Source: Synechococcus sp. RS9916
Lineage (GTDB): Bacteria; Cyanobacteriota; Cyanobacteriia; PCC-6307; Cyanobiaceae
Assembly: GCF_000153825.1 (NCBI RefSeq)
Contig: NZ_DS022299.1
Span: forward strand, 894,869 to 958,868
Length of the DNA stretch: 64,000 nt
Direction of reading: 5' to 3'
Shown: positions 26,277 through 37,575 of the stretch, in pieces
Layout: every line of letters begins with the position of its first letter
How positions within the stretch are numbered: position 1 is the stretch's first letter
The notes under the pieces: generated by a model
The model's database searches: none
Seen by the model: only the letters and a program-made list of their open reading frames with translations
Told to the model about the DNA's origin: nothing
Program-made: the position numbers and the translations under genes

Positions 26277-26474
26277 TCAGGCCTCATCCAGTGATGCCAG
26301 GTCGGCTTTTAGGTCAGCCTCAGCACATCGGCTCATCAGTCGGTTCGACACATCCAACTGCTCTTCGACCTCCAAACGATCAGGGCGAAGATGGGGAAGC
26401 ACAGCGCGCAATTCCCGGCGACGTTTGCGGGCGACAAAACGATGGAAGCGGTTGATCGAACGTGAACGGGTCAT
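26277..26474 (-). CDS. Small basic/acidic hypothetical protein (65 aa)
   Basis: Starting at the ATG on 26474 gives 65 residues. The basic N-terminal half is MTRSRSINRFHRFVARKRRR and the acidic end reads AEADLKADLASLDEA. A longer frame to 26708 runs antisense through the ABC transporter and was not used. It is divergent from that transporter. Size and charge pattern suggest a real picocyanobacterial small protein, but no family is recognised. Confidence 0.55.
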   Translation of the reverse strand: MTRSRSINRFHRFVARKRRRELRAVLPHLRPDRLEVEEQLDVSNRLMSRCAEADLKADLASLDEA

Positions 26475-26547
26475 TGACACCTCATCGATCTCTGCCACAG
26501 GTCTAGAACTGTTAGTCAGGAAAAACAGTTCATCCGCAACACAACGC

Positions 26548-28353
26548 TTGAAACCGTCCAGCTCCACCCTGCAACGACTGCTGGGGCACCTGCATCCCCA
26601 CCGGCGCTTGGTCGCCTGGGCAGCCTTTTGTTCGGTTGTGAACAAGATCTTTGATCTGGCACCACCGGTGCTGATCGCGCTTGCTGTGGATGTGCTCGCC
26701 GCCAGCAAGTTGGATCAGCAACAAACAGCCTGGCTCGCACGGCTTGGAGCCAGCGATGTCCCCAGCCAACTGATGGTGCTGGCGGTGCTGTCGTTTCTGG
26801 TCTGGAGTGCGGAGTCGCTGTTCGAATACCTCTATGGCGTGCTGTGGCGCAATCTCGCCCAAACCACGCAGCACAGCATCCGTCTTGAAGCCTATGGCCA
26901 TCTTCAGAACCTGGAGATGGCGTTTTTCGAGCACGACAGCAGCGGCAGGCTCCTGACCGTGCTGAACGATGACATCAACCAACTGGAGCGTTTTCTCGAC
27001 CGTGGCGCCAACGAGATCCTGCAGCTGATCACCACCGTGGTGTTGGTGGGTGGTGCGATGGCACTGATCGCTCCTGGAGTCGCCGTATTTGCCTATCTGC
27101 CGATCCCGGTCATCCTCTGGGGTTCGCTGCAGTTCCAACGCCGCCTTGCCCCCCGCTATCGCGAGGTGCGAGACCAGGCGGGGAACCTTGGCTCACGGCT
27201 TGCGAACAATCTGAGCGGGATGCTCACGATCAAAAGTTTCACGGCAGAAGCCTGGGAACTGAACCAGCTGCGTGAAGACAGCGATGCCTATCGCCTGAGC
27301 AACCGTCGGGCCATTCGCCTCTCTGCAGCCTTCATCCCGCTGATCCGATTCGCGATCCTGTTCGCCTTTGTTGCCATCCTGCTGATCGGTGGTCTCCAAA
27401 CCTGGCGCGGAGAGTTGTCGATCGGCTCCTACAGCTTTCTGGTCTTCATCACCCAGCGTCTGCTCTGGCCCCTCACCACCCTGGGGCGCACCCTGGATGA
27501 CTACCAGCGTTCCATGGCCTCCACACGTCGCGTTCTGGATCTGATCGACACACCGATTCAAATCCGGAGTGGTGAACGTCGCCTCGCACCAGCGCAGGTG
27601 CAGGGGGCCATCCACTACGACCAAGTCGACTTCCATTACCGCGATCGCGACCTCCTGCTGAAGGACTTCTCGTTGCACGTGGAAGCGGGTCAGACCATCG
27701 GCATCGTTGGTGCCACAGGCTCGGGCAAAAGCACACTTGTGAAGTTGCTCTTGCGCCTCTACCCGATCAGTGGAGGACGCATCTATCTGGATGAGGTTCC
27801 AATCGACAGCCTCGACCTCGGAGATCTCAGACGCAGCATCGCGCTGGTGAGCCAAGACGTGTACCTCTTCCACGGCAGTGTGGCTGCAAACATTGCCTAT
27901 GGCTGCCCGCAGGCGACGCGCGCTGCCGTGATGGATGCAGCGGTGCTGGCTGAAGCCCATGCATTCATCGCCACCCTGCCGGAGGGCTACGACACCGTGG
28001 TCGGCGAACGGGGGCAACGTCTGTCAGGCGGACAGCGTCAGCGCATTGCCCTGGCGAGAGCCATCCTCAAAGATGCCCCAGTCCTGGTGCTTGACGAAGC
28101 CACCGCTGCCGTCGACAACGAAACCGAGGCAGCGATTCAACGCTCGTTGATGCAGATCACGGCCAATCGCACCACACTTGTGATTGCTCACCGCCTCAGC
28201 ACCGTGCGGCACGCTGATCGAATCGTTGTTCTCGAGCAGGGTCGGATCGTGCAGCAGGGGCAACATGACGCCCTGCTGCGCCAAGGCGGTGCCTACGCAG
28301 ATCTGTGGCGAGTGCAAGCAGGTTTGCGCCCAGAAGAAGCCTTGGTGCTGTGA
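26548..28353 (+). CDS. ABC exporter, fused permease-ATPase (MsbA/multidrug type)
   Basis: The 601-residue half-transporter has six transmembrane helices in about residues 20-320. The ATPase domain has Walker A (GATGSGKSTLV), signature LSGGQRQR, Walker B (VLVLDEATA) and the H-loop (IAHRLST). Substrates of this family include lipids and drugs and are not predictable here. The TTG at 26548 is preferred because it gives the usual N-terminus (KPSSSTLQRLLGHL). The frame extends up to 26425, but that part overlaps the divergent 65-residue gene. The CPA2 antiporter gene follows immediately and may overlap. Confidence 0.9.
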   Translation: MKPSSSTLQRLLGHLHPHRRLVAWAAFCSVVNKIFDLAPPVLIALAVDVLAASKLDQQQTAWLARLGASDVPSQLMVLAVLSFLVWSAESLFEYLYGVLWRNLAQTTQHSIRLEAYGHLQNLEMAFFEHDSSGRLLTVLNDDINQLERFLDRGANEILQLITTVVLVGGAMALIAPGVAVFAYLPIPVILWGSLQFQRRLAPRYREVRDQAGNLGSRLANNLSGMLTIKSFTAEAWELNQLREDSDAYRLSNRRAIRLSAAFIPLIRFAILFAFVAILLIGGLQTWRGELSIGSYSFLVFITQRLLWPLTTLGRTLDDYQRSMASTRRVLDLIDTPIQIRSGERRLAPAQVQGAIHYDQVDFHYRDRDLLLKDFSLHVEAGQTIGIVGATGSGKSTLVKLLLRLYPISGGRIYLDEVPIDSLDLGDLRRSIALVSQDVYLFHGSVAANIAYGCPQATRAAVMDAAVLAEAHAFIATLPEGYDTVVGERGQRLSGGQRQRIALARAILKDAPVLVLDEATAAVDNETEAAIQRSLMQITANRTTLVIAHRLSTVRHADRIVVLEQGRIVQQGQHDALLRQGGAYADLWRVQAGLRPEEALVL

Positions 28354-30499: not shown

Positions 30500-31438
30500 A
30501 TGACACAAACTCGGCCCGTCAGGGGCCAACCGAGGATTCGCTCGTTGGCCATTGCCATCGTGCTTGGACTCGGTTCCGGTCTGGTCCTGGCCATTCCCCT
30601 CAGCACGGTGCTGTTGCCGGAGCAAAGCCGCAACACCCTATTTGGGCTGCCCCTCGAGAACCCCTTTTCCTCCTGGGTAGGGATCGGAGATCGGGAAGTC
30701 GTTGTGATGGGAATGGATGCCGGTGGAGGCAACACCGACACGATCTTCACGATCCGGATCGACAACGGCCAGACCCAAATCACCCAAATTCCTCGTGATA
30801 GCTACATCAACTCGGCCCGCTTCGGGCCACTGAAAGCCAATGCCCTCTACGCCTATGGCGGCAGCGATGAGGTCAAGAAGGAACTCTCTCGATTAATGGG
30901 TCGTCCGATCCAGCACCACCTGCTGGTCAATCTCGAGGGGATCCGTTCCATCAGTGATCTGATGGGAGGTGTGACAGTCAATGTGCCCAAACGGCTCTAT
31001 TACGTCGACCGCGCCCAAGGGCTCTACATCGATCTGCAACCCGGCCCACAATTGCTCAAAGGACGGGAGCTCGAGGGGTTCCTGCGCTGGCGCCATGACG
31101 AACTGGGGGATTTCGGTCGTCTTCAACGCCAGCAGCTGGTGATCAAAAGTTTGTTCGGGTCGCTGACCAAACCGGAAAACGTGGTGCGCCTGCCAGCTCT
31201 GATCACAGCCGCAGGACGGAATCTGAAAACCGATCTTGGCCCCATGGAGTTGGGTGGTCTGATCACCGCCATGGGCACCACCGAATTGAAAACCGATCGG
31301 CTTGAAGCAACGCCGTTTGAGAAGGACGGCATCAGTTATCTCGACACCCAGTGGCCGGCCCAAAGCGAAAACGGCACATCCTTTGAAGACTCCTCGTCGC
31401 CCAACCGCAACGGATGGCGATCCAGGCCACTCTTCTGA
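30500..31438 (+). CDS. LytR-CpsA-Psr (LCP) family glycopolymer transferase-like protein
   Basis: The 312-residue protein has an N-terminal transmembrane anchor (about residues 16-38) and an external LCP domain. Conserved positions are present: VVMGMDAGGGNTDTIF, QIPRDSYIN (key Arg/Asp), KANALYAYGG and the C-terminal RWRHDELGDFGRLQRQQ. LCP enzymes attach polyprenyl-linked glycopolymers to cell wall, and in cyanobacteria they may act in wall or surface polysaccharide assembly. With these residues it should be catalytically competent, unlike the second LCP at the window end. The following FUSC genes may share its transcript. Confidence 0.92.
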   Translation: MTQTRPVRGQPRIRSLAIAIVLGLGSGLVLAIPLSTVLLPEQSRNTLFGLPLENPFSSWVGIGDREVVVMGMDAGGGNTDTIFTIRIDNGQTQITQIPRDSYINSARFGPLKANALYAYGGSDEVKKELSRLMGRPIQHHLLVNLEGIRSISDLMGGVTVNVPKRLYYVDRAQGLYIDLQPGPQLLKGRELEGFLRWRHDELGDFGRLQRQQLVIKSLFGSLTKPENVVRLPALITAAGRNLKTDLGPMELGGLITAMGTTELKTDRLEATPFEKDGISYLDTQWPAQSENGTSFEDSSSPNRNGWRSRPLF

Positions 31439-31521: not shown

Positions 31522-32478
31522 ATGGCAACGGCAGCGACGACGTGGGTGGACAGCAACCTGGTGCGACAGAGCCTGAAGCTGGGCCTGAGCGTTCTGATCA
31601 CCTGCGCCATGGCCCATCACTTCCAGCGAGTCATTTTTCTCTGGTATCCGCTGCTCGCAGTGATCTTTGTAGTCGACGAAGAAGACGAAAACACTCTCCA
31701 AGCGGCACGAGGACGAATCCTGGGCACCGTGGCTGGTGGACTGGTCGCCTTCATCGTGCACACAATCCTGACCGGTTGGATGGGAATCCTGGTGAGCTTG
31801 CTGATCAGCATTCCCCTGCTCCGCCGTCTGGGCTGGACCAGTGGTCTGTCGACCGCTGCCGTGATCACGATTCTGTTTCTGGGCATCCCCGACTACGCCA
31901 GGCTCAACTGGGATTACGTGTTCAACCGCAGCGTCGACACTGTGATCGGCATTGTCGTGGCCCTGGTGATGAGCCGCTTGCTGTGGCCGAAAAACCGCTT
32001 AGCCCGTCTCACCGAACTGGATGCTCTACAAAAAAAACTCCTCCAACAACGTCTCAACGTTCATCAACAAGCCCTCAAACAGGGTGAACCAGCTGAACGG
32101 GTAAATGCCGGGCCCCTGACCCACACCCTGCTGGAAATGGAACGGCTGGTGTCAACCAGCAGCAACCTGCCGAGCAGCACCCAGCGGGCCATGACCCAAC
32201 AACGCTGGCGTCAACGCATGCTGCTCTGGCACGCGCTCCACACCCGCCTGTTTCTGATGGAACGGCTAATGGAACGCTATTACCGCCAGCACGACCAACC
32301 CAGCCCCCAGCTCAGTCGCCAGTTTGATCGCACCCCACCCCTGCACTGGGAGCGACTGCAACTGACAGAACTCAACGATCACCTGCCGGCACTGCGCATC
32401 GCCCTGGAAGGACAAATCACTGAGTTGCGCTGGTTGATGCGCAGCCAGGCACGACTCGAACAGGCGATCACGCCATGA
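31522..32478 (+). CDS. FUSC-family membrane protein (first of a pair)
   Basis: The 318-residue protein has about five to six hydrophobic helices in the first 160 residues (LKLGLSVLITCAMAH, VAGGLVAFIVHTILTGW, TAAVITILFLGIP). A long cytoplasmic helical region rich in Gln/Leu/Arg follows. This is the layout of FUSC/AaeB-like aromatic-acid exporters, but half the size of classical AaeB, which repeats the unit twice. The stop overlaps the next FUSC gene by 4 bp (ATGA), so the two proteins likely assemble together. A TolC gene follows. Confidence 0.8.
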   Translation: MATAATTWVDSNLVRQSLKLGLSVLITCAMAHHFQRVIFLWYPLLAVIFVVDEEDENTLQAARGRILGTVAGGLVAFIVHTILTGWMGILVSLLISIPLLRRLGWTSGLSTAAVITILFLGIPDYARLNWDYVFNRSVDTVIGIVVALVMSRLLWPKNRLARLTELDALQKKLLQQRLNVHQQALKQGEPAERVNAGPLTHTLLEMERLVSTSSNLPSSTQRAMTQQRWRQRMLLWHALHTRLFLMERLMERYYRQHDQPSPQLSRQFDRTPPLHWERLQLTELNDHLPALRIALEGQITELRWLMRSQARLEQAITP

Positions 32479-33620
32479 CCAGGCCAAAAGCTCCCTTGTT
32501 CATGCGTCAGGACCTGCGTCTGGCCATCGTCACAGGTCTTTCTGCCGGACTTGGTCTGCTGAGTCCGATCCCCTACGGCTACTACTTGCCGTTGACGACA
32601 GCAGCGGTGTTGACGAGCAGTTACGGCTCGTCAATCCGTCTGGGGGGTCAACGCCTGCTTGGTTCAGTGATGGGCGTGCTGGTGCTGTTCCTGTTTTCCA
32701 AGGGCCTGACCTTGCCTCTTCCCATCGCCATCGGTCTTGCACTCGGGTTCACCCGACTGTTGGGCGGACTACTGGGCCTGAAGGTGGGGTACAAGGTGGC
32801 AGGCAACATCATCGTGATGGGGTGGATTGTCCACGGCGACAGCGAGACGAGCTGGGGCACCTTGCGGTTGATGTGGACCGCCTTGGGAATCGTGATTTCG
32901 CTGTGGGCCAGCCGCTGGATCTGGCCTAGCCCCACCATCGCCAATCTCCATCAACTCCAAGCCGGTCTCCTCAAGGCCATTGCCGACGGTCTGAAGCAAG
33001 AGGCTTGGATGCTCACCGCAGCTTCAAACGATCCAGCTCACGTCCGAACAACCGGCAACCACCATCGGACACGGCTCCAGCAGCTGACTGTGATCCGTCA
33101 GAAACGCCAAGAAGCTCAGATGGAACTGGGTCTGAATCCTGAACGCCACCCCTTAGGGCAACTCTGGAGTCAGCTGGATTGGTTGTGTTCTCAAGGGGTC
33201 ACGGTGTCCATTGGCCTGGCCAACCTGCCGATGGTGAAGGCGACCCATGAACCGATCAAGCGGCTGTATCAACAACAAGCCCATGTGATCCAAAGCATGG
33301 TGGAGCTTCTGGACAAGCTCGAGCAGGAATTGGCAAACCTTGGCAGCGGAAATCACCACGATTTCCGAGCCGATGGACTTCGTCCCGCGATCCAAAACCT
33401 GCAAAGGGAAGGGACGCGGTTGGATCCGTTGTTGACCGGTCTCTCCACACCATCAGGACAGGATCTGGCCCCCAGTGCCTTGCGCCAGGTGATTCTTCGC
33501 AATGCCCTGATCGAGCAACTGATCGTCATCGGGGATGGATTGGCCACCCTGACCAGCTCCTCGCCTGGCACAGAACGCACCCGAGGTCTGGCATCACGGG
33601 CAAAGTCAGGACCTAGATAA
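32475..33620 (+). CDS. FUSC-family membrane protein (second of a pair)
   Basis: This 381-residue protein repeats the architecture of its neighbour: N-terminal helices (LRLAIVTGLSAGLGLLSPIP, GQRLLGSVMGVLVLFLFS, VAGNIIVMGWIVHG) to about residue 155, then a long helical cytoplasmic domain. It is translationally coupled to the first FUSC gene by an ATGA overlap, and the TolC-family gene begins 18 bp later. The three together look like the pump and outer-membrane parts of an exporter; the substrate is unknown. Confidence 0.8.
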   Translation: MTRPKAPLFMRQDLRLAIVTGLSAGLGLLSPIPYGYYLPLTTAAVLTSSYGSSIRLGGQRLLGSVMGVLVLFLFSKGLTLPLPIAIGLALGFTRLLGGLLGLKVGYKVAGNIIVMGWIVHGDSETSWGTLRLMWTALGIVISLWASRWIWPSPTIANLHQLQAGLLKAIADGLKQEAWMLTAASNDPAHVRTTGNHHRTRLQQLTVIRQKRQEAQMELGLNPERHPLGQLWSQLDWLCSQGVTVSIGLANLPMVKATHEPIKRLYQQQAHVIQSMVELLDKLEQELANLGSGNHHDFRADGLRPAIQNLQREGTRLDPLLTGLSTPSGQDLAPSALRQVILRNALIEQLIVIGDGLATLTSSSPGTERTRGLASRAKSGPR

Positions 33621-33638
33621 CAACAGGACGACTGAACT

Positions 33639-35390
33639 GTGAGAGGGCCTTGGCGACTGGCGCTGATCACCGCGGCAACGCTTGCAGGGTCAGCTAGCCA
33701 TGGCCAGCCCATCCCACAACCACAGCCTCTCATTGCCCCCCTCAACGAAGGCGGCACGCCTAAACAGCTGGAACGCAGCTGGCAACGGCTGAACGGCCAG
33801 ATGGATGCGTTGGACCAGATGCTGGGACCTGCTCCAGCTCTCGACTTCACTGATGACCTGCGCAGCGAACCTCTACCCGAGGCATTGCTCAAGGCCAACT
33901 CGCAGGACAACACCCAAGCCATGGGACTCAATGAGGCCCTCACCCTGGCCTTCCGCAACAATCCAAACCTCGCAATGCAGCGGTTGGCCATTGCCGCACA
34001 GGGAGCGCGGGTTGCCTCTGCTTCAGGGCTTTACTGGCCAACGCTCAGGGTCGTCGCTGCAGGGGAGGGATTCCAGAGCAATGCCACCATGCGCTCGCCT
34101 TACGCCAATGACGGCTATGGCTTAGGGCCCGCCTTCAACCCAGGCGGCGACGACAACACCTTCCTGATCACCACCAACGGCAGCACAAAGCCAAAGGACT
34201 TTCAAAGCAACAGCGGCCCCTTCTACATACCAGCTGGTGGTGCCTTCTCTTCAGTGAGCAATGGATTGGTCGGCGACATCAGCCTGCGCATCGATTACGA
34301 CCTGCTGGACTTCGGACGCACACCGACGGTTCGAGCCGCCCGGGCTCATCTGGATCAATTGGAAAACAGCTACGCCAACGCCCTTCGCGTGCTCCAGCTC
34401 GACGTCAGTGAGGCCTATTTCCGACTGCAGCGAGATGAGCAATTGGCGCGGATCTACGACGCGATGGTGCGCACTGACCTGGTGGTCCTGGATGACACCC
34501 TTGGGCTGAAGCAGGCGGGAATCGTGCCTCGCGTCGACCTGCTGCGCCGCAGTGCCATGCTCGCGCGCAATCAGGAGAAATTGATCCAGACCCTGGCGGA
34601 TCGTGCCGTGGCTCGGCGTCGCCTATGGATGCTGCTCAACCTTCCAGCAACCGTCACCCCCAGCGCATCCGACCCGATCAACCTCAGTCCCCGTTGGCCC
34701 CTGACTCTGGAAGACAGCCTGCTGGCGGCCTATCGCGACAACCCCGAATTGGAAGCCATTACCGCCACCCGAAGAGCCCTTGCCTTGCAAAAGGATGCGA
34801 CCGCCGCTGCTCTGCTGCCGCGACTCCGCCTTTTCGCAGCAGCAGGGGCAGCCGCCTCCGTGGAACGCACCTTCAATTTGGCCCTCAGTGGAGGCGGTTG
34901 TTGCGGCAGCACGGTGGTCCCCCTCGCCCAGAGCACCAGTAACGACTGGTCCCTGGGCCTGAGTTTGGATTGGCTGGTGTTCGATGCCGGCACCACCAGC
35001 AATGCCGTGGAAGCGCTGAAACAAGACGACGATGCCGCTGCCCAGCACTACATCAACCAACGCAACGGCATCCGTTTACGCCTGGAACAGGCCTTTTTCA
35101 ACCATGAAGCAAGTCTTGCCAAGCTGCTATCAGCCCGGCGAGCCCTCGGCGCCAGCAAAGAGGCCTTCCGCGATGCCTCACTCCGCTACCAGACAGGTCT
35201 CACCAATGAAGTGGAGCTATCGATCACCCAGGAACAACTGGTTGATGCCTTGGTGCGACGTCTGATCGCCAACATCGACGTGAACATCACCTACGCCCAA
35301 CTGTTGCGGGAACTGCTGCCCATGCCGCGGGATCCATCCAAGCCTGTTCCTACCCGCCTAACGTTGCCGACAGAACCTCAAAAGCCCTGA
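33639..35390 (+). CDS. TolC-family outer membrane efflux protein
   Basis: The 583-residue protein has a signal peptide (RGPWRLALITAATLAGSASHG), a proline-rich linker, and the two-fold TolC repeat with coiled-coil helices. The repeats show GLNEALTLAFRNNPNLAMQR (about residue 97) and LEDSLLAAYRDNPELEAITA (about 355). The middle has VGDISLRIDYDLLDFGRT, and the second repeat has SLGLSLDWLVFDAGTTSNAV. It forms a trimeric channel across the outer membrane. It follows the FUSC pair by 18 bp and is convergent with a HlyD adaptor gene, so the parts of a tripartite pump are side by side. The start is GTG. Confidence 0.92.
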   Translation: MRGPWRLALITAATLAGSASHGQPIPQPQPLIAPLNEGGTPKQLERSWQRLNGQMDALDQMLGPAPALDFTDDLRSEPLPEALLKANSQDNTQAMGLNEALTLAFRNNPNLAMQRLAIAAQGARVASASGLYWPTLRVVAAGEGFQSNATMRSPYANDGYGLGPAFNPGGDDNTFLITTNGSTKPKDFQSNSGPFYIPAGGAFSSVSNGLVGDISLRIDYDLLDFGRTPTVRAARAHLDQLENSYANALRVLQLDVSEAYFRLQRDEQLARIYDAMVRTDLVVLDDTLGLKQAGIVPRVDLLRRSAMLARNQEKLIQTLADRAVARRRLWMLLNLPATVTPSASDPINLSPRWPLTLEDSLLAAYRDNPELEAITATRRALALQKDATAAALLPRLRLFAAAGAAASVERTFNLALSGGGCCGSTVVPLAQSTSNDWSLGLSLDWLVFDAGTTSNAVEALKQDDDAAAQHYINQRNGIRLRLEQAFFNHEASLAKLLSARRALGASKEAFRDASLRYQTGLTNEVELSITQEQLVDALVRRLIANIDVNITYAQLLRELLPMPRDPSKPVPTRLTLPTEPQKP

Positions 35391-35396
35391 TCAGGC

Positions 35397-35564
35397 TCAA
35401 GACCGCGACGCCCACCAGCGCTCGATCCGGTACAAGAAAATCATCAGGAACACGACGAGCCAGAACCACAGCTCAGGCGGATTGGCGTTCATCAGCACCA
35501 CCAGCAGCACCACTTCTGACAGGAGCCAAGGCAGCTCTTGACGCAGCAACGAACGACGGGCCAT
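35397..35564 (-). CDS. 55-residue membrane protein coupled to HlyD adaptor
   Basis: The ATG at 35564 overlaps the HlyD stop (ATGA) and gives 55 residues beginning MARRSLLRQELPWLLSEVVL. It has two hydrophobic helices (LLSEVVLLVVLMNA and LWFWLVVFLMIFLYRI) and basic ends. E. coli aaeXAB similarly pairs a tiny membrane protein (AaeX) with the HlyD-like AaeA and the FUSC pump AaeB. This protein could be a functional counterpart, though I see no sequence match. A frame extending to 35687 through hlyD was rejected. Confidence 0.65.
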   Translation of the reverse strand: MARRSLLRQELPWLLSEVVLLVVLMNANPPELWFWLVVFLMIFLYRIERWWASRS

Positions 35565-36901
35565 CAGGGAGGAGTACCGGGCTGACGCAGGAAGGGCAAA
35601 TCCCAGAGACGATCCATGCGAATGGATCGATAACCACCGGTCAGCGAACGCAATCCAGGAATGATGTAAGTGATTGGCGAACGCCATTCGACATAGGCGA
35701 AGGTGTCGACAGTGAGCCCATCACGAATCGGGAAGACCCCACTGCCCTGGGAAAGGGTCCAGCGATAGCCATCCTCCGATCGTGAATCACGATCCAGAGC
35801 GATCTCAGCGCGCATCACAGGACCATCTTTGAGCAAGTCTTGCGCCAGCTGCGGGTTCCCGATCGTGGTGGCGATGTCGTCCTGCGTCGCCGGCAGGCTA
35901 AGCACACTGCGGATCGTTCCCTCAATACCACCGAACCGGCCCCTCTGGCGCCAGAGGGGCACGACCTCGACAGGCAATCCCAACGGCAAGCGACGCGCGT
36001 CTTCAGGAGCGAAGTAAGCCACGGCCATCAGATCATCAACCGGTTGCTGACGGTTTTTGGAATGAAGCGCGGCTCGACCAATCGTGCCGAGGCGATCACC
36101 AATTTTGATGGTCTGGCCAGCGATCACCTGCAGATCGAGCACATCACCATCTCGCCCTGCACTGACATCACCGTCGTAGGCGATCCGGGCTTCCGTCACT
36201 GCGATTTCTCGGTTCAGATCGTCAATGGCGAATTGACGGTCCAACTGTTCAGTTTCGATCGCGAGTTCGATCTGTTGAAAGGCGGTGATTGCCTGCTTGC
36301 GCTGGATCTTGATGTCGTCCAGCTGCACGCTGGTGCCGGTCAGACCCTCCTCAGCAGAGACCACCGCCGAGGAAAGCGGCGCTACCACCGCCCGCCGCGA
36401 CAACCAGTTGAGATTACTGACCTTGGCGGAGTAGGTCGCTTGCAGCTGCGCAAGACGCTGTTCGTCATCGCCGAGCTTGGCCAGGGTGGTGTCGAGGGCA
36501 GCCTGAGCCGTCGACAAGCGGCGAACATCCCTGGCATTGAGCTCTTCGTTCTGCCGACGGAGCTGAGCCAGGTTGCCGCGTTGCTGCTCAAGCTGACGTT
36601 CCAGCACAGGGAGATACAGGCGCATCAACACCTGACCCTTCCGGACCCGGTCCCCCACCTTCACTGCCACGTCAACCACTTGACCACCCGCCCGGGCATT
36701 GAGGATCCCAGCGTTGTTGGGGTAGATCAGGATGCCCTTCCCTTTGACTTGGGTGGGAACAGGCCAAAACAAAAGCCAGACACCAAACAACCCGCCCACA
36801 CCACAGAGGGCAACCCCCACCTGCTGATGATCACTGAGACCATGCCAGCGATCACGCAGATTGGTCAGCCAGGGTTGGAGGGAACGGGGGGCCAGCCTCA
36901 T
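35564..36901 (-). CDS. HlyD-family membrane fusion protein (periplasmic adaptor)
   Basis: The 445-residue protein has one N-terminal transmembrane helix (VGVALCGVGGLFGVWLLFW, about residues 28-46). It is followed by the lipoyl half-motif GGQVVDVAVKVGDRVRKGQVL and a long coiled coil (about 95-245, rich in L/Q/E/R). A second lipoyl half (DGDVLDLQVIAGQTIKIGDRLG) and a beta-barrel end with PITYIIPGLRSLTGG complete it. Overall it resembles adaptors of type I and bacteriocin-type exporters. It faces the FUSC-FUSC-TolC genes in convergent orientation. No peptidase-ABC exporter is adjacent. Confidence 0.88.
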   Translation of the reverse strand: MRLAPRSLQPWLTNLRDRWHGLSDHQQVGVALCGVGGLFGVWLLFWPVPTQVKGKGILIYPNNAGILNARAGGQVVDVAVKVGDRVRKGQVLMRLYLPVLERQLEQQRGNLAQLRRQNEELNARDVRRLSTAQAALDTTLAKLGDDEQRLAQLQATYSAKVSNLNWLSRRAVVAPLSSAVVSAEEGLTGTSVQLDDIKIQRKQAITAFQQIELAIETEQLDRQFAIDDLNREIAVTEARIAYDGDVSAGRDGDVLDLQVIAGQTIKIGDRLGTIGRAALHSKNRQQPVDDLMAVAYFAPEDARRLPLGLPVEVVPLWRQRGRFGGIEGTIRSVLSLPATQDDIATTIGNPQLAQDLLKDGPVMRAEIALDRDSRSEDGYRWTLSQGSGVFPIRDGLTVDTFAYVEWRSPITYIIPGLRSLTGGYRSIRMDRLWDLPFLRQPGTPP

Positions 36902-36947: not shown

Positions 36948-37502
36948 TCAAATCAGCAGAGTGAACGACTCCACCACCTCTTTGAACAGCCCCTTGACCT
37001 TGGGCCAGCGGCTCTCATTGGTGCTGGTGGCCAGGGTGTAGAGACGGCCGCGATCCACCACCACGGTTGCCAGTTCGTGGCGATCACGATCCTGCAGATG
37101 AACGGCGAACTCGAGGTCGTAGAAGGTGTGGCCCGACACCTCACGTTCGTTGGCCTCCACCAGTTCGGCATCCCGGCCGCTGCCAGATGGCGCAATCACA
37201 TCACGGCGAAGTCGCTCACCGACTGCGACGGCACTGCCCAGCTGCTGAAGCTCATCGTCGGTATCTACATCCGACACCACCAGGCTGACGGTTTCATCGC
37301 TGTTGATCAGGTCGTGAAACACAACCTGGGGACCACCGCTGACGGCGACACGGCTCCAGCCCGTGGGGTACAAGAAGGCATAACGCCCGTCAGGGCTCTG
37401 GAACGAGTTCAGACCAGCTCCGGCGCCACTGCAAGCCGTGAGCATCACAACGCAGAGCAACGTCATCAACAGACGCAGCGGAGATTGCAACAACGAACGC
37501 AT
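36948..37502 (-). CDS. psbP: Lipoprotein PsbP (CyanoP), photosystem II assembly protein
   Basis: The 184-residue protein has an N-terminal lipoprotein signal with lipobox (VVMLTACSG, Cys about residue 24). The PsbP fold follows: FQSPDGRYAFLYPTGWSRV, VVFHDLINSDETVSLVVS, YDLEFAVHL and a final KVKGLFKEVVESF. CyanoP sits on the lumenal side of thylakoids and assists early PSII assembly. Length fits the family. The ATG at 37502 is used; a TTG precedes it. It is divergent from recR, with a 73-bp gap. Confidence 0.92.
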   Translation of the reverse strand: MRSLLQSPLRLLMTLLCVVMLTACSGAGAGLNSFQSPDGRYAFLYPTGWSRVAVSGGPQVVFHDLINSDETVSLVVSDVDTDDELQQLGSAVAVGERLRRDVIAPSGSGRDAELVEANEREVSGHTFYDLEFAVHLQDRDRHELATVVVDRGRLYTLATSTNESRWPKVKGLFKEVVESFTLLI

Positions 37503-37575
37503 CAACCCGAAACCTGACCTGGCGCCATTCTGCCCTGGACAGCGTGCCTAGATTTCCGGCACTTGCGGTAGACCC

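Follow-up and report, generated by a model that had tools for sequence, protein, structure and literature searches.

Two half-size FUSC chains, a conserved 55-aa protein, an HlyD-type adaptor and a TolC channel form a candidate trans-envelope exporter in Synechococcus sp. RS9916

The window (the whole stretch of 64,000 nucleotides analysed, from Synechococcus sp. RS9916) contains at 31522-36901 a block of five genes whose products probably make up a single exporter across the cell envelope. It would belong to the FUSC (aromatic acid exporter) class and be of the AaeXAB/FusCDE kind. Two half-size proteins, FUSC1 and FUSC2, would pair as a heterodimer in the inner membrane and together stand in for a single chain of the AaeB type, with HlyD bridging the periplasm and TolC forming the outer-membrane duct. 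A 55-aa protein, AaeX/FusD-like in size and place, would be the fourth functional part, also in the inner membrane. Transport would be outward, and the substrate may be a small organic anion, e.g. an aromatic or carboxylic acid. On this reading, the inner-membrane part would be heterodimeric and the small subunit would be a new one.

Picocyanobacteria release much fixed carbon but, to our knowledge, few metabolite exporters have been described in them. The block is a self-contained candidate for such an exporter, and its split pair would allow each half of a FUSC pump to be studied alone. Direct comparison of exometabolites is possible because one genus offers natural presence/absence pairs, i.e. 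G034 without the set and G242 and G254 with it.

Gene content and layout of the block

FUSC1 (31522..32478, + strand, 318 aa) is a half-size FUSC/ArAE inner-membrane subunit that scores 40.8 bits with Pfam ArAE_1 (cut-off 22) and 38.6 bits with FUSC_2 (cut-off 25.6). FUSC2 (32475..33620, + strand, 381 aa), the second half-size subunit, scores 37.1 bits with FUSC_2; the family search called for by the preliminary description thus places both proteins above the cut-off. The ATG of FUSC2 lies within the end of FUSC1 (ATGA overlap, junction GCCATGACC, read directly). The gene of the TolC-family outer-membrane channel (33639..35390, + strand) starts with GTG 18 bases 3' of FUSC2 and matches Pfam OEP with an E of 4.5e-42 and 144.4 bits (cut-off 22). 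The HlyD-family periplasmic adaptor (35564..36901, - strand, 445 aa) faces these genes. It is followed by a gene for a hydrophobic 55-aa protein without a name (35397..35564, - strand), the stop codon of HlyD and the start codon of the small gene being joined in TGATG (read directly). Since HlyD and the 55-aa gene are on the opposite strand, the five genes do not form a single operon.

The coordinates, overlap and orientations given by the preliminary description are exact. Its four parts are right as well but the set was incomplete, the 55-aa gene having been overlooked. It also held that the locus has no ABC or RND motor, and indeed no such gene is found among FUSC1, FUSC2, TolC and HlyD; the nearest ABC gene, MsbA-like, lies at 26425-28353, 3.2 kb upstream of FUSC1. 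The immediate flanks are an LCP-family glycopolymer transferase on the left (30500..31438, + strand; LytR_cpsA_psr, E 2.7e-30) and PsbP on the right (36948..37505, - strand; PsbP, E 9.1e-54), both judged to be outside the machine, and no LysR-type regulator is adjacent. The locus thus combines a FUSC inner-membrane protein with a linked HlyD-type adaptor and a linked outer-membrane channel, as expected of a FUSC-type exporter.

The five genes appear to come and go together

HlyD (at least 50% identity), the 55-aa protein (E<=1e-6), FUSC2 (E<=1e-10) and a close TolC (at least 50% identity) are found in the same 21 of 81 family genomes, a phyletic match that shared ancestry and genome size inflate. 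FUSC1 is present in 20 of these 21 and in none of the 60 others; in the 21st it runs into a contig edge and is incomplete. Seven genomes with weak matches to the small protein (E 8e-5 to 1e-3; G007, G010, G028, G031, G046, G055 and G073) are not counted; in the two of the seven that were inspected, the matches (L201, L202) turned out to be parts of unrelated proteins ~200 aa long. Two more weak matches, in G023 and G044, belong to genomes already counted. HlyD matches at ~31% identity (G029, G056, G071) were excluded because they are located between ABC genes.

The block is a discrete insertion between LCP and PsbP. Among eight genomes without the set, all of which have PsbP, LCP is near PsbP in six and directly adjacent in three, one of them of the same genus, with gaps of ~6-220 bases between the open frames. 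In the 45 loci with both flanks the small gene is always present (45/45), TolC is found in 43 (absent in L105 and L106) and both FUSC genes in 43 (absent in L154 and L173). Among the 54 locus-1 stretches with at least 7 kb downstream, 48 have the FUSC pair, 6 are without FUSC and 3 without TolC, some of these absences being due in part to the end of the stretch. The FUSC-pair counts (43/45 and 48/54) record the presence of both genes, adjacent or not. In the genome G018 the pair is ~30 kb away from HlyD. The two collections of loci and genomes overlap (e.g. G047:C21 and L120), and their counts are kept separate.

In two Cyanobium strains the old copies are decaying while an additional set of foreign origin is present. 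The second set of Cyanobium sp. Cruz-8D1 (L158) is 94.5% identical at the DNA level to that of C. usitatum (L141) for HlyD and 87.6% for TolC, while PsbP and LipA of these two genomes are only 75-76% identical; the HlyD tree agrees with a foreign origin. The old copy of Cruz-8D1 has stops or deletions in HlyD, the small gene, FUSC1 and TolC. A single acquisition may be behind both strains. In G075, of the same genus, the four large genes are all broken between intact flanks and the small gene is still open.

Judged from gene content and decay, the five genes thus appear to behave as one unit, and the co-conservation across picocyanobacteria that had been proposed as a check is borne out. The two strands used and the gene order, rearranged in several loci, could suit chance neighbours with unrelated roles kept together by drift. 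We regard this as very improbable, given the common phyletic profile, the discrete LCP-PsbP insertion and the acquisition and decay of the genes as a set. The preliminary description had suggested, from position, that the parts may be one proton-driven exporter. That they belong together is upheld by these observations and by the single-chain counterparts described below; proton drive is not established.

HlyD and its possible partners

The linkage of HlyD and TolC to FUSC is not absolute, and here the evidence went in part against the preliminary description by the refuting condition that it had set itself, HlyD or TolC conserved without the FUSC pair. A paralogous locus, HlyD2-small2-TolC2, is without FUSC in all fetched stretches of the two collections (0/7 and 0/6); the FUSC pair is missing from two of the 45 complete loci, as noted above, and L165 has HlyD and the small gene with neither FUSC nor TolC within 9 kb. 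Thus HlyD, the small protein and TolC could be a general-purpose or ABC-linked conduit, e.g. for type I secretion of Nif11/NHLP-type peptides, with the FUSC pair adjacent by chance. HlyD is above the cut-off of the NHLM_micro_HlyD equivalog (TIGR03794, 186.5 bits, cut-off 156.2), which all 23 aligned members match at E<=1e-5, and the genome has 35 Nif11-leader matches at E<=1e-3, 28 of them above the cut-off.

We nevertheless find this explanation improbable. An ABC-HlyD-ABC set exists elsewhere in the genome (G000:C1:1834919-1840415); its HlyD scores 241 bits on TIGR03794 and its best ABC piece 582.6 bits, below the TIGR03797 cut-off of 709.4. No cognate ABC1/ABC2 is found beside the block: the gene at 26425-28353 scores 283.9 with TIGR03796 (cut-off 853.3) and 269.2 with TIGR03797. 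In the HlyD tree (91 rows; L066-L085 omitted as largely the same genomes, fragments under 330 residues dropped, including L184) the window HlyD stands far apart from four ABC-flanked adaptors, that of the G000:C1 set and three more, which form a separate clade (100/100) on a very long branch. It also matches Pfam HlyD_3 (26.1 bits, cut-off 22.2), and, when seven E. coli proteins were searched with its profile, AaeA matched (E 1e-8). For this clade the automatic annotation as "NHLP bacteriocin system secretion protein" is probably misleading. The HlyB-HlyD-TolC of Synechococcus sp. PCC 7002, named for siderophore secretion in the relevant part of PMC11171426, is another system; among the matches listed for FUSC and related terms in cyanobacteria or Synechococcus, no publication deals with the locus.

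FUSC1 and FUSC2 follow HlyD across the 81 genomes and, outside the family, HlyD is beside the small gene in 12/12 loci. In 10 of these 12, from six genera, HlyD, the small gene and a single-chain FUSC of ~720-800 aa come in a row. The conserved neighbours in ten of the twelve loci give no clue to the substrate beyond HlyD, FUSC, TolC (3 loci) and long proteins common to three loci.

Origin and fold of the FUSC halves

The window has two FUSC chains in place of one chain with two membrane halves. FUSC1 is homologous to FUSC2 (hhalign 98.6) and both resemble the N-half of fused cyanobacterial relatives, so they do not look like the products of a plain fission into N-half and C-half. Among the seven E. 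coli proteins, however, the profile of FUSC1 finds MdtO in its C-half, and AaeB in its N-half (E 3e-7). The preliminary view of the pair as AaeB halves in separate neighbouring genes thus holds for their size and position, but probably not for a simple N-half/C-half split.

The AlphaFold models (pLDDT 84 for FUSC1, 88 for FUSC2) resemble subunits of ALMT anion channels, which supply the six best PDB matches of each half. For FUSC2 six matches, all ALMT, reach E<=0.001; for FUSC1 the E-values are 0.007-0.1, none at or below 0.001. FUSC1 alone has no match in a sequence search of solved structures, and the best match of its profile is ALMT12, with an E of 0.13. The plant proteins share with the FUSC halves a half-size subunit made of a membrane helical bundle and a helical cytosolic domain. 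The portion of PMC11842843 on ALMT9 describes dimers of one protein, with a pore shared between protomers, in contrast to the two different chains of the window. The likeness of both halves to these dimeric subunits favours a pairing of FUSC1 with FUSC2.

Because the half-chains fold like ALMT subunits, a potential-driven conduit is also possible. FUSC1/FUSC2 would then be an ALMT-like channel from which the anion leaves down the electrical gradient through HlyD and TolC, with no proton coupling, a variant of the exporter proposed above that differs only in its energy source. The dimeric half-size architecture fits this variant, as do the arginines, several in each half, that vary little or not at all in alignments and have a putative pore-lining role. 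We hold the variant to be unlikely, though not negligible. Fold likeness gives no mechanism, and TM-scores with the ALMT structures are just 0.35-0.52. The helical domain of FUSC2 is also matched by PhoU-like proteins in the fold search, and none of the window proteins matches Pfam ALMT at E<=0.1. Moreover, the parts of PMC9301823 and PMC7682875 on AaeXAB and FusC describe these systems as efflux pumps.

A slightly less probable form of the same idea adds that the heterodimer, with no chemical motor, is docked by the 55-aa protein onto the adaptor-TolC duct. The plant ALMT channels are not known to work with HlyD or TolC. Were the conduit real, the phototroph would have a multi-part exporter releasing a chosen organic anion in one step, and the 55-aa family would be a new dedicated docking subunit replacing DUF1656 proteins in cyanobacteria.

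The 55-aa protein and the known exporters

The FUSC-class exporter that we favour has close parallels in gene content. E. coli AaeXAB (L103) also combines a FUSC protein, an HlyD-type adaptor and a small membrane protein; it differs by a single 655-aa chain (AaeB), the lack of a channel gene in the annotated stretch and the adjacent LysR regulator aaeR. E. coli MdtNOP with YtcA (L104) has an adaptor, a FUSC protein, a channel and a small upstream protein in one locus, but MdtO is a single 683-aa chain. FusCDE/Bucl8, the tetrapartite fusaric acid pump of Burkholderia, has at one locus a channel, a FUSC protein, an adaptor and a 67-aa protein whose gene has a start/stop overlap, like the 55-aa gene, according to the portion of PMC7682875 on this locus. 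There FusC is one 733-aa chain, in one operon beside a LysR regulator, whereas the window has two chains, a convergent HlyD-small pair and LCP/PsbP flanks.

The 55-aa protein is likened to FusD by size and place, not by sequence. It has no Pfam match and is therefore not a DUF1656-type (AaeX) protein by profile; no kinship with AaeX or YtcA was found (hmmsearch E 0.21 and 0.95 respectively). PF19455 (DUF5993) weakly matches 15 of the 21 small proteins, with E 0.0012 at best, but not the window protein, and membership of it was not accepted. In E. coli AaeX is of little importance for p-coumarate efflux, as stated in the relevant part of PMC9301823. The 55-aa family has a conserved stretch, NANxPELWFW, and its sequence probably forms two membrane helices.

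Of 125 loci found, 80 were kept, and in 73 of their 74 locus-1 stretches the small gene adjoins HlyD. The 74 count the decayed copies L162 and L184, and in the one remaining stretch, L144, the contig stops at HlyD. Likewise, small2 adjoins HlyD2 in 6/6 locus-2 loci. The protein is thus an unnamed, well conserved companion, common to cyanobacterial FUSC loci of the split, the single-chain and the compact form. Codon comparisons indicate that its gene is under purifying selection. Against the 12 homologues for which dS is computable (16 compared; two of the 12, L241 and L244, represent the genomes of L105 and L106 a second time) dN/dS is 0.06-0.28, e.g. 0.095/1.66 for L105 and 0.226/0.806 for L131. 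In four more pairs it is 0.03-0.09 for three and 0.49 for the very close pair L241/L244.

A conserved five-gene block between LCP and PsbP

The five-gene block at 31522-36901 is a real, conserved cassette, predicted to be an exporter. The four genes of the preliminary description have the positions and orientations claimed: FUSC1 (31522-32478, plus strand; Pfam FUSC_2/ArAE_1 above cut-offs) and FUSC2 (32475-33620, plus strand; FUSC_2 above cut-off), half-size inner-membrane proteins whose genes indeed overlap by the four bases ATGA; the outer-membrane channel TolC (33639-35390, plus strand; OEP above cut-off), starting 18 bases after the end of FUSC2; and the periplasmic adaptor HlyD (36901-35564, minus strand; HlyD_3 above cut-off), convergent on the other three as described. 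That set overlooked a fifth gene, encoding a 55-aa protein (“small”; 35564-35397, minus strand), which begins at the final base of HlyD's stop codon. Small and TolC lie tail to tail (35390-35397); as their stop codons are separated by 6 bases, there is no space between the two convergent arms for a terminator.

In the window, the interval between LCP (30500-31438) and PsbP (36948-37505) is taken up by the five genes. The PsbP region was inspected in eight genomes lacking the set: PsbP directly adjoins LCP and converges with it in G034 (same genus), G004 and G029, the two genes are ~1.1-1.4 kb apart in G030, G035 and G045, and in G003 and G017 MsbA adjoins PsbP and LCP was not found.

In named genomes, the best 80 of 125 HlyD relatives correspond to 74 loci of the window type (locus 1) and 6 of a paralogous HlyD2-small2-TolC2 type (locus 2). 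Among these best 80, all 45 locus-1 loci with both flanks contain small; TolC is present in 43 of them (absent from L105 and L106) and the complete FUSC pair likewise in 43 (absent from L154 and L173). Where at least 7 kb is available downstream of HlyD, again among the best 80, both FUSC genes are present in 48 of 54 locus-1 loci and TolC in 51; L165 has neither the FUSC pair nor TolC. Gene order varies: TolC is divergent from HlyD in several loci, and some carry a second FUSC pair between small and TolC. In G064, FUSC2 and TolC of locus 1 are separated by a protein that has no Pfam match (L066:3977-4813, the copy scanned); its relative L090:11088-11807 adjoins HlyD2 in locus 2 of G062. One contig recorded as a Bifidobacterium breve MAG (L169) contains the cyanobacterial locus together with PsbP and LCP; the record is apparently mislabelled.

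Co-occurrence in the family

HlyD (at least 50% identity), small (E<=1e-6), FUSC2 (E<=1e-10) and TolC (at least 50%) are each found in the same 21 of the 81 Cyanobiaceae genomes, a phyletic profile that by itself is not proof since the genomes share kinship and the carriers tend, by eye, to be larger. FUSC1 is found in 20 of those 21 and in 0/60 others; the 21st genome (G074) has a partial FUSC1 at the end of a 3953-base contig. The FUSC pair of G048 is divergent (FUSC1, 27% identity).

The HlyD label

The window HlyD scores above the cut-off of TIGR03794 (NHLP bacteriocin adaptor), and all 23 aligned HlyD proteins match this NCBIfam model (E<=1e-5), most of the clade lying beside FUSC genes. 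The same genome also encodes an ABC-HlyD-ABC set elsewhere (C1:1834919-1840415), with an HlyD that outscores the window HlyD (241 bits) and an ABC gene below the TIGR03797 cut-off. This separate ABC-linked adaptor is far from the window HlyD in the HlyD tree. The bacteriocin name should not be transferred; automatic annotation likely mislabels this clade. Separately, this genome has a large peptide natural-product repertoire, with 35 Nif11-type leader peptide matches (E<=1e-3), 28 above cut-off and one with an in-frame stop.

The small protein and other locus architectures

The window copy of small has no Pfam match and is read from its sequence as two membrane helices. Its relatives share a NANxPELWFW stretch, and dN/dS values of 0.06-0.28 (the 12 of 16 homologues with computable dS) indicate more synonymous than non-synonymous changes. 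The small-protein profile has matches in 32/388 genomes of the class, 11 of them outside the family. In these 11 genomes HlyD adjoins small in 12/12 fetched loci, of which 10, from six genera, are arranged HlyD-small-FUSC on one strand, FUSC being one frame of 719-806 residues from stop to stop (L196, L231-L237, L239, L240). In L238 two long FUSC genes lie next to HlyD and small is divergent, whereas FUSC is absent from the 18 kb of L195; TolC occurs in 3/12 of the fetched stretches. Within the family, a third locus type combines TolC, HlyD and small with a compact FUSC_2 protein of ~375 aa (4/4 fetched loci, L246-L249, out of six such weak small-profile matches); this protein seems to contain two membrane repeats and to lack a large cytosolic domain. 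Thus HlyD and the 55-aa protein are found together in three architectures of FUSC locus. At HlyD2-small2-TolC2 loci FUSC is found in 0/7 fetched stretches (L086-L092) and in 0/6 named loci (L178-L183, two with <3 kb downstream), and the inner-membrane partner of this adaptor type may therefore be another protein, or a FUSC encoded elsewhere.

The split FUSC pair

FUSC1 and FUSC2 are homologues of each other (hhalign 98.6); compared with single-chain FUSC, both are nearer the N-half (97.4 and 96.1) than the C-half (0.8 and 66.4). In comparisons with E. coli proteins, the match of FUSC1 falls in the N-half of AaeB but in the C-half of MdtO. The AlphaFold models of FUSC1 and FUSC2 (pLDDT 84 and 88) consist of helices throughout, arranged as a membrane bundle with a helical domain after it. 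The six PDB matches of the FUSC2 model at E<=0.001 are all plant ALMT channels (9.0e-8 to 4.8e-6), followed by PhoU-like helical proteins; the top six for FUSC1 are also ALMT (E 0.007-0.1, probability 0.99-1.00). TM-scores are modest for both (0.35-0.52). The pore of the ALMT9 dimer is built from TM2 and TM5 of each protomer (excerpt of PMC11842843). FUSC1 and FUSC2 would form a heterodimer standing in for the single chain, and could act either as a pump coupled to protons or as an anion conduit driven by the membrane potential.

The nearest known systems, Burkholderia Bucl8-FusCDE, E. coli AaeXAB and E. coli MdtNOP, have the same overall plan. An extract on Bucl8-FusCDE describes a tetrapartite pump with FusC of 733 aa and FusD of 67 aa (PMC7682875). 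Unlike in these systems, FUSC is split into two chains in the window, the small subunit matches neither AaeX nor YtcA, and no regulator is adjacent. None of the papers listed in literature searches on cyanobacterial FUSC proteins or exporters deals with this locus.

Decay and probable acquisition of the set

HlyD, TolC, FUSC1 and FUSC2 are all broken in G075 (same genus); LCP, NaH, MsbA and PsbP are intact there, and small keeps an open frame. Two sets occur in Cyanobium sp. Cruz-8D1. One, next to PsbP and LCP, is decayed (L162): HlyD and FUSC1 contain stops, TolC and small carry deletions, and FUSC2 has no stop. The other, at a different place, is intact (L158). DNA identity of L158 to C. usitatum L141 is 94.5% for HlyD and 87.6% for TolC, that of PsbP and LipA between the two organisms just 75-76%. 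Cruz CV13-4-11 has the same kind of pair, L133 and a decayed L184 (HlyD and small decayed, no FUSC or TolC within the fetched stretch). The HlyD and TolC of L158 and L133 are 97-98% alike, so these two genomes may reflect a single event. In the HlyD tree, from which L184 was left out as too fragmented, L158 and L133 group with L141, and L162 with L143. The functional set seems to have been acquired whole, in one go.
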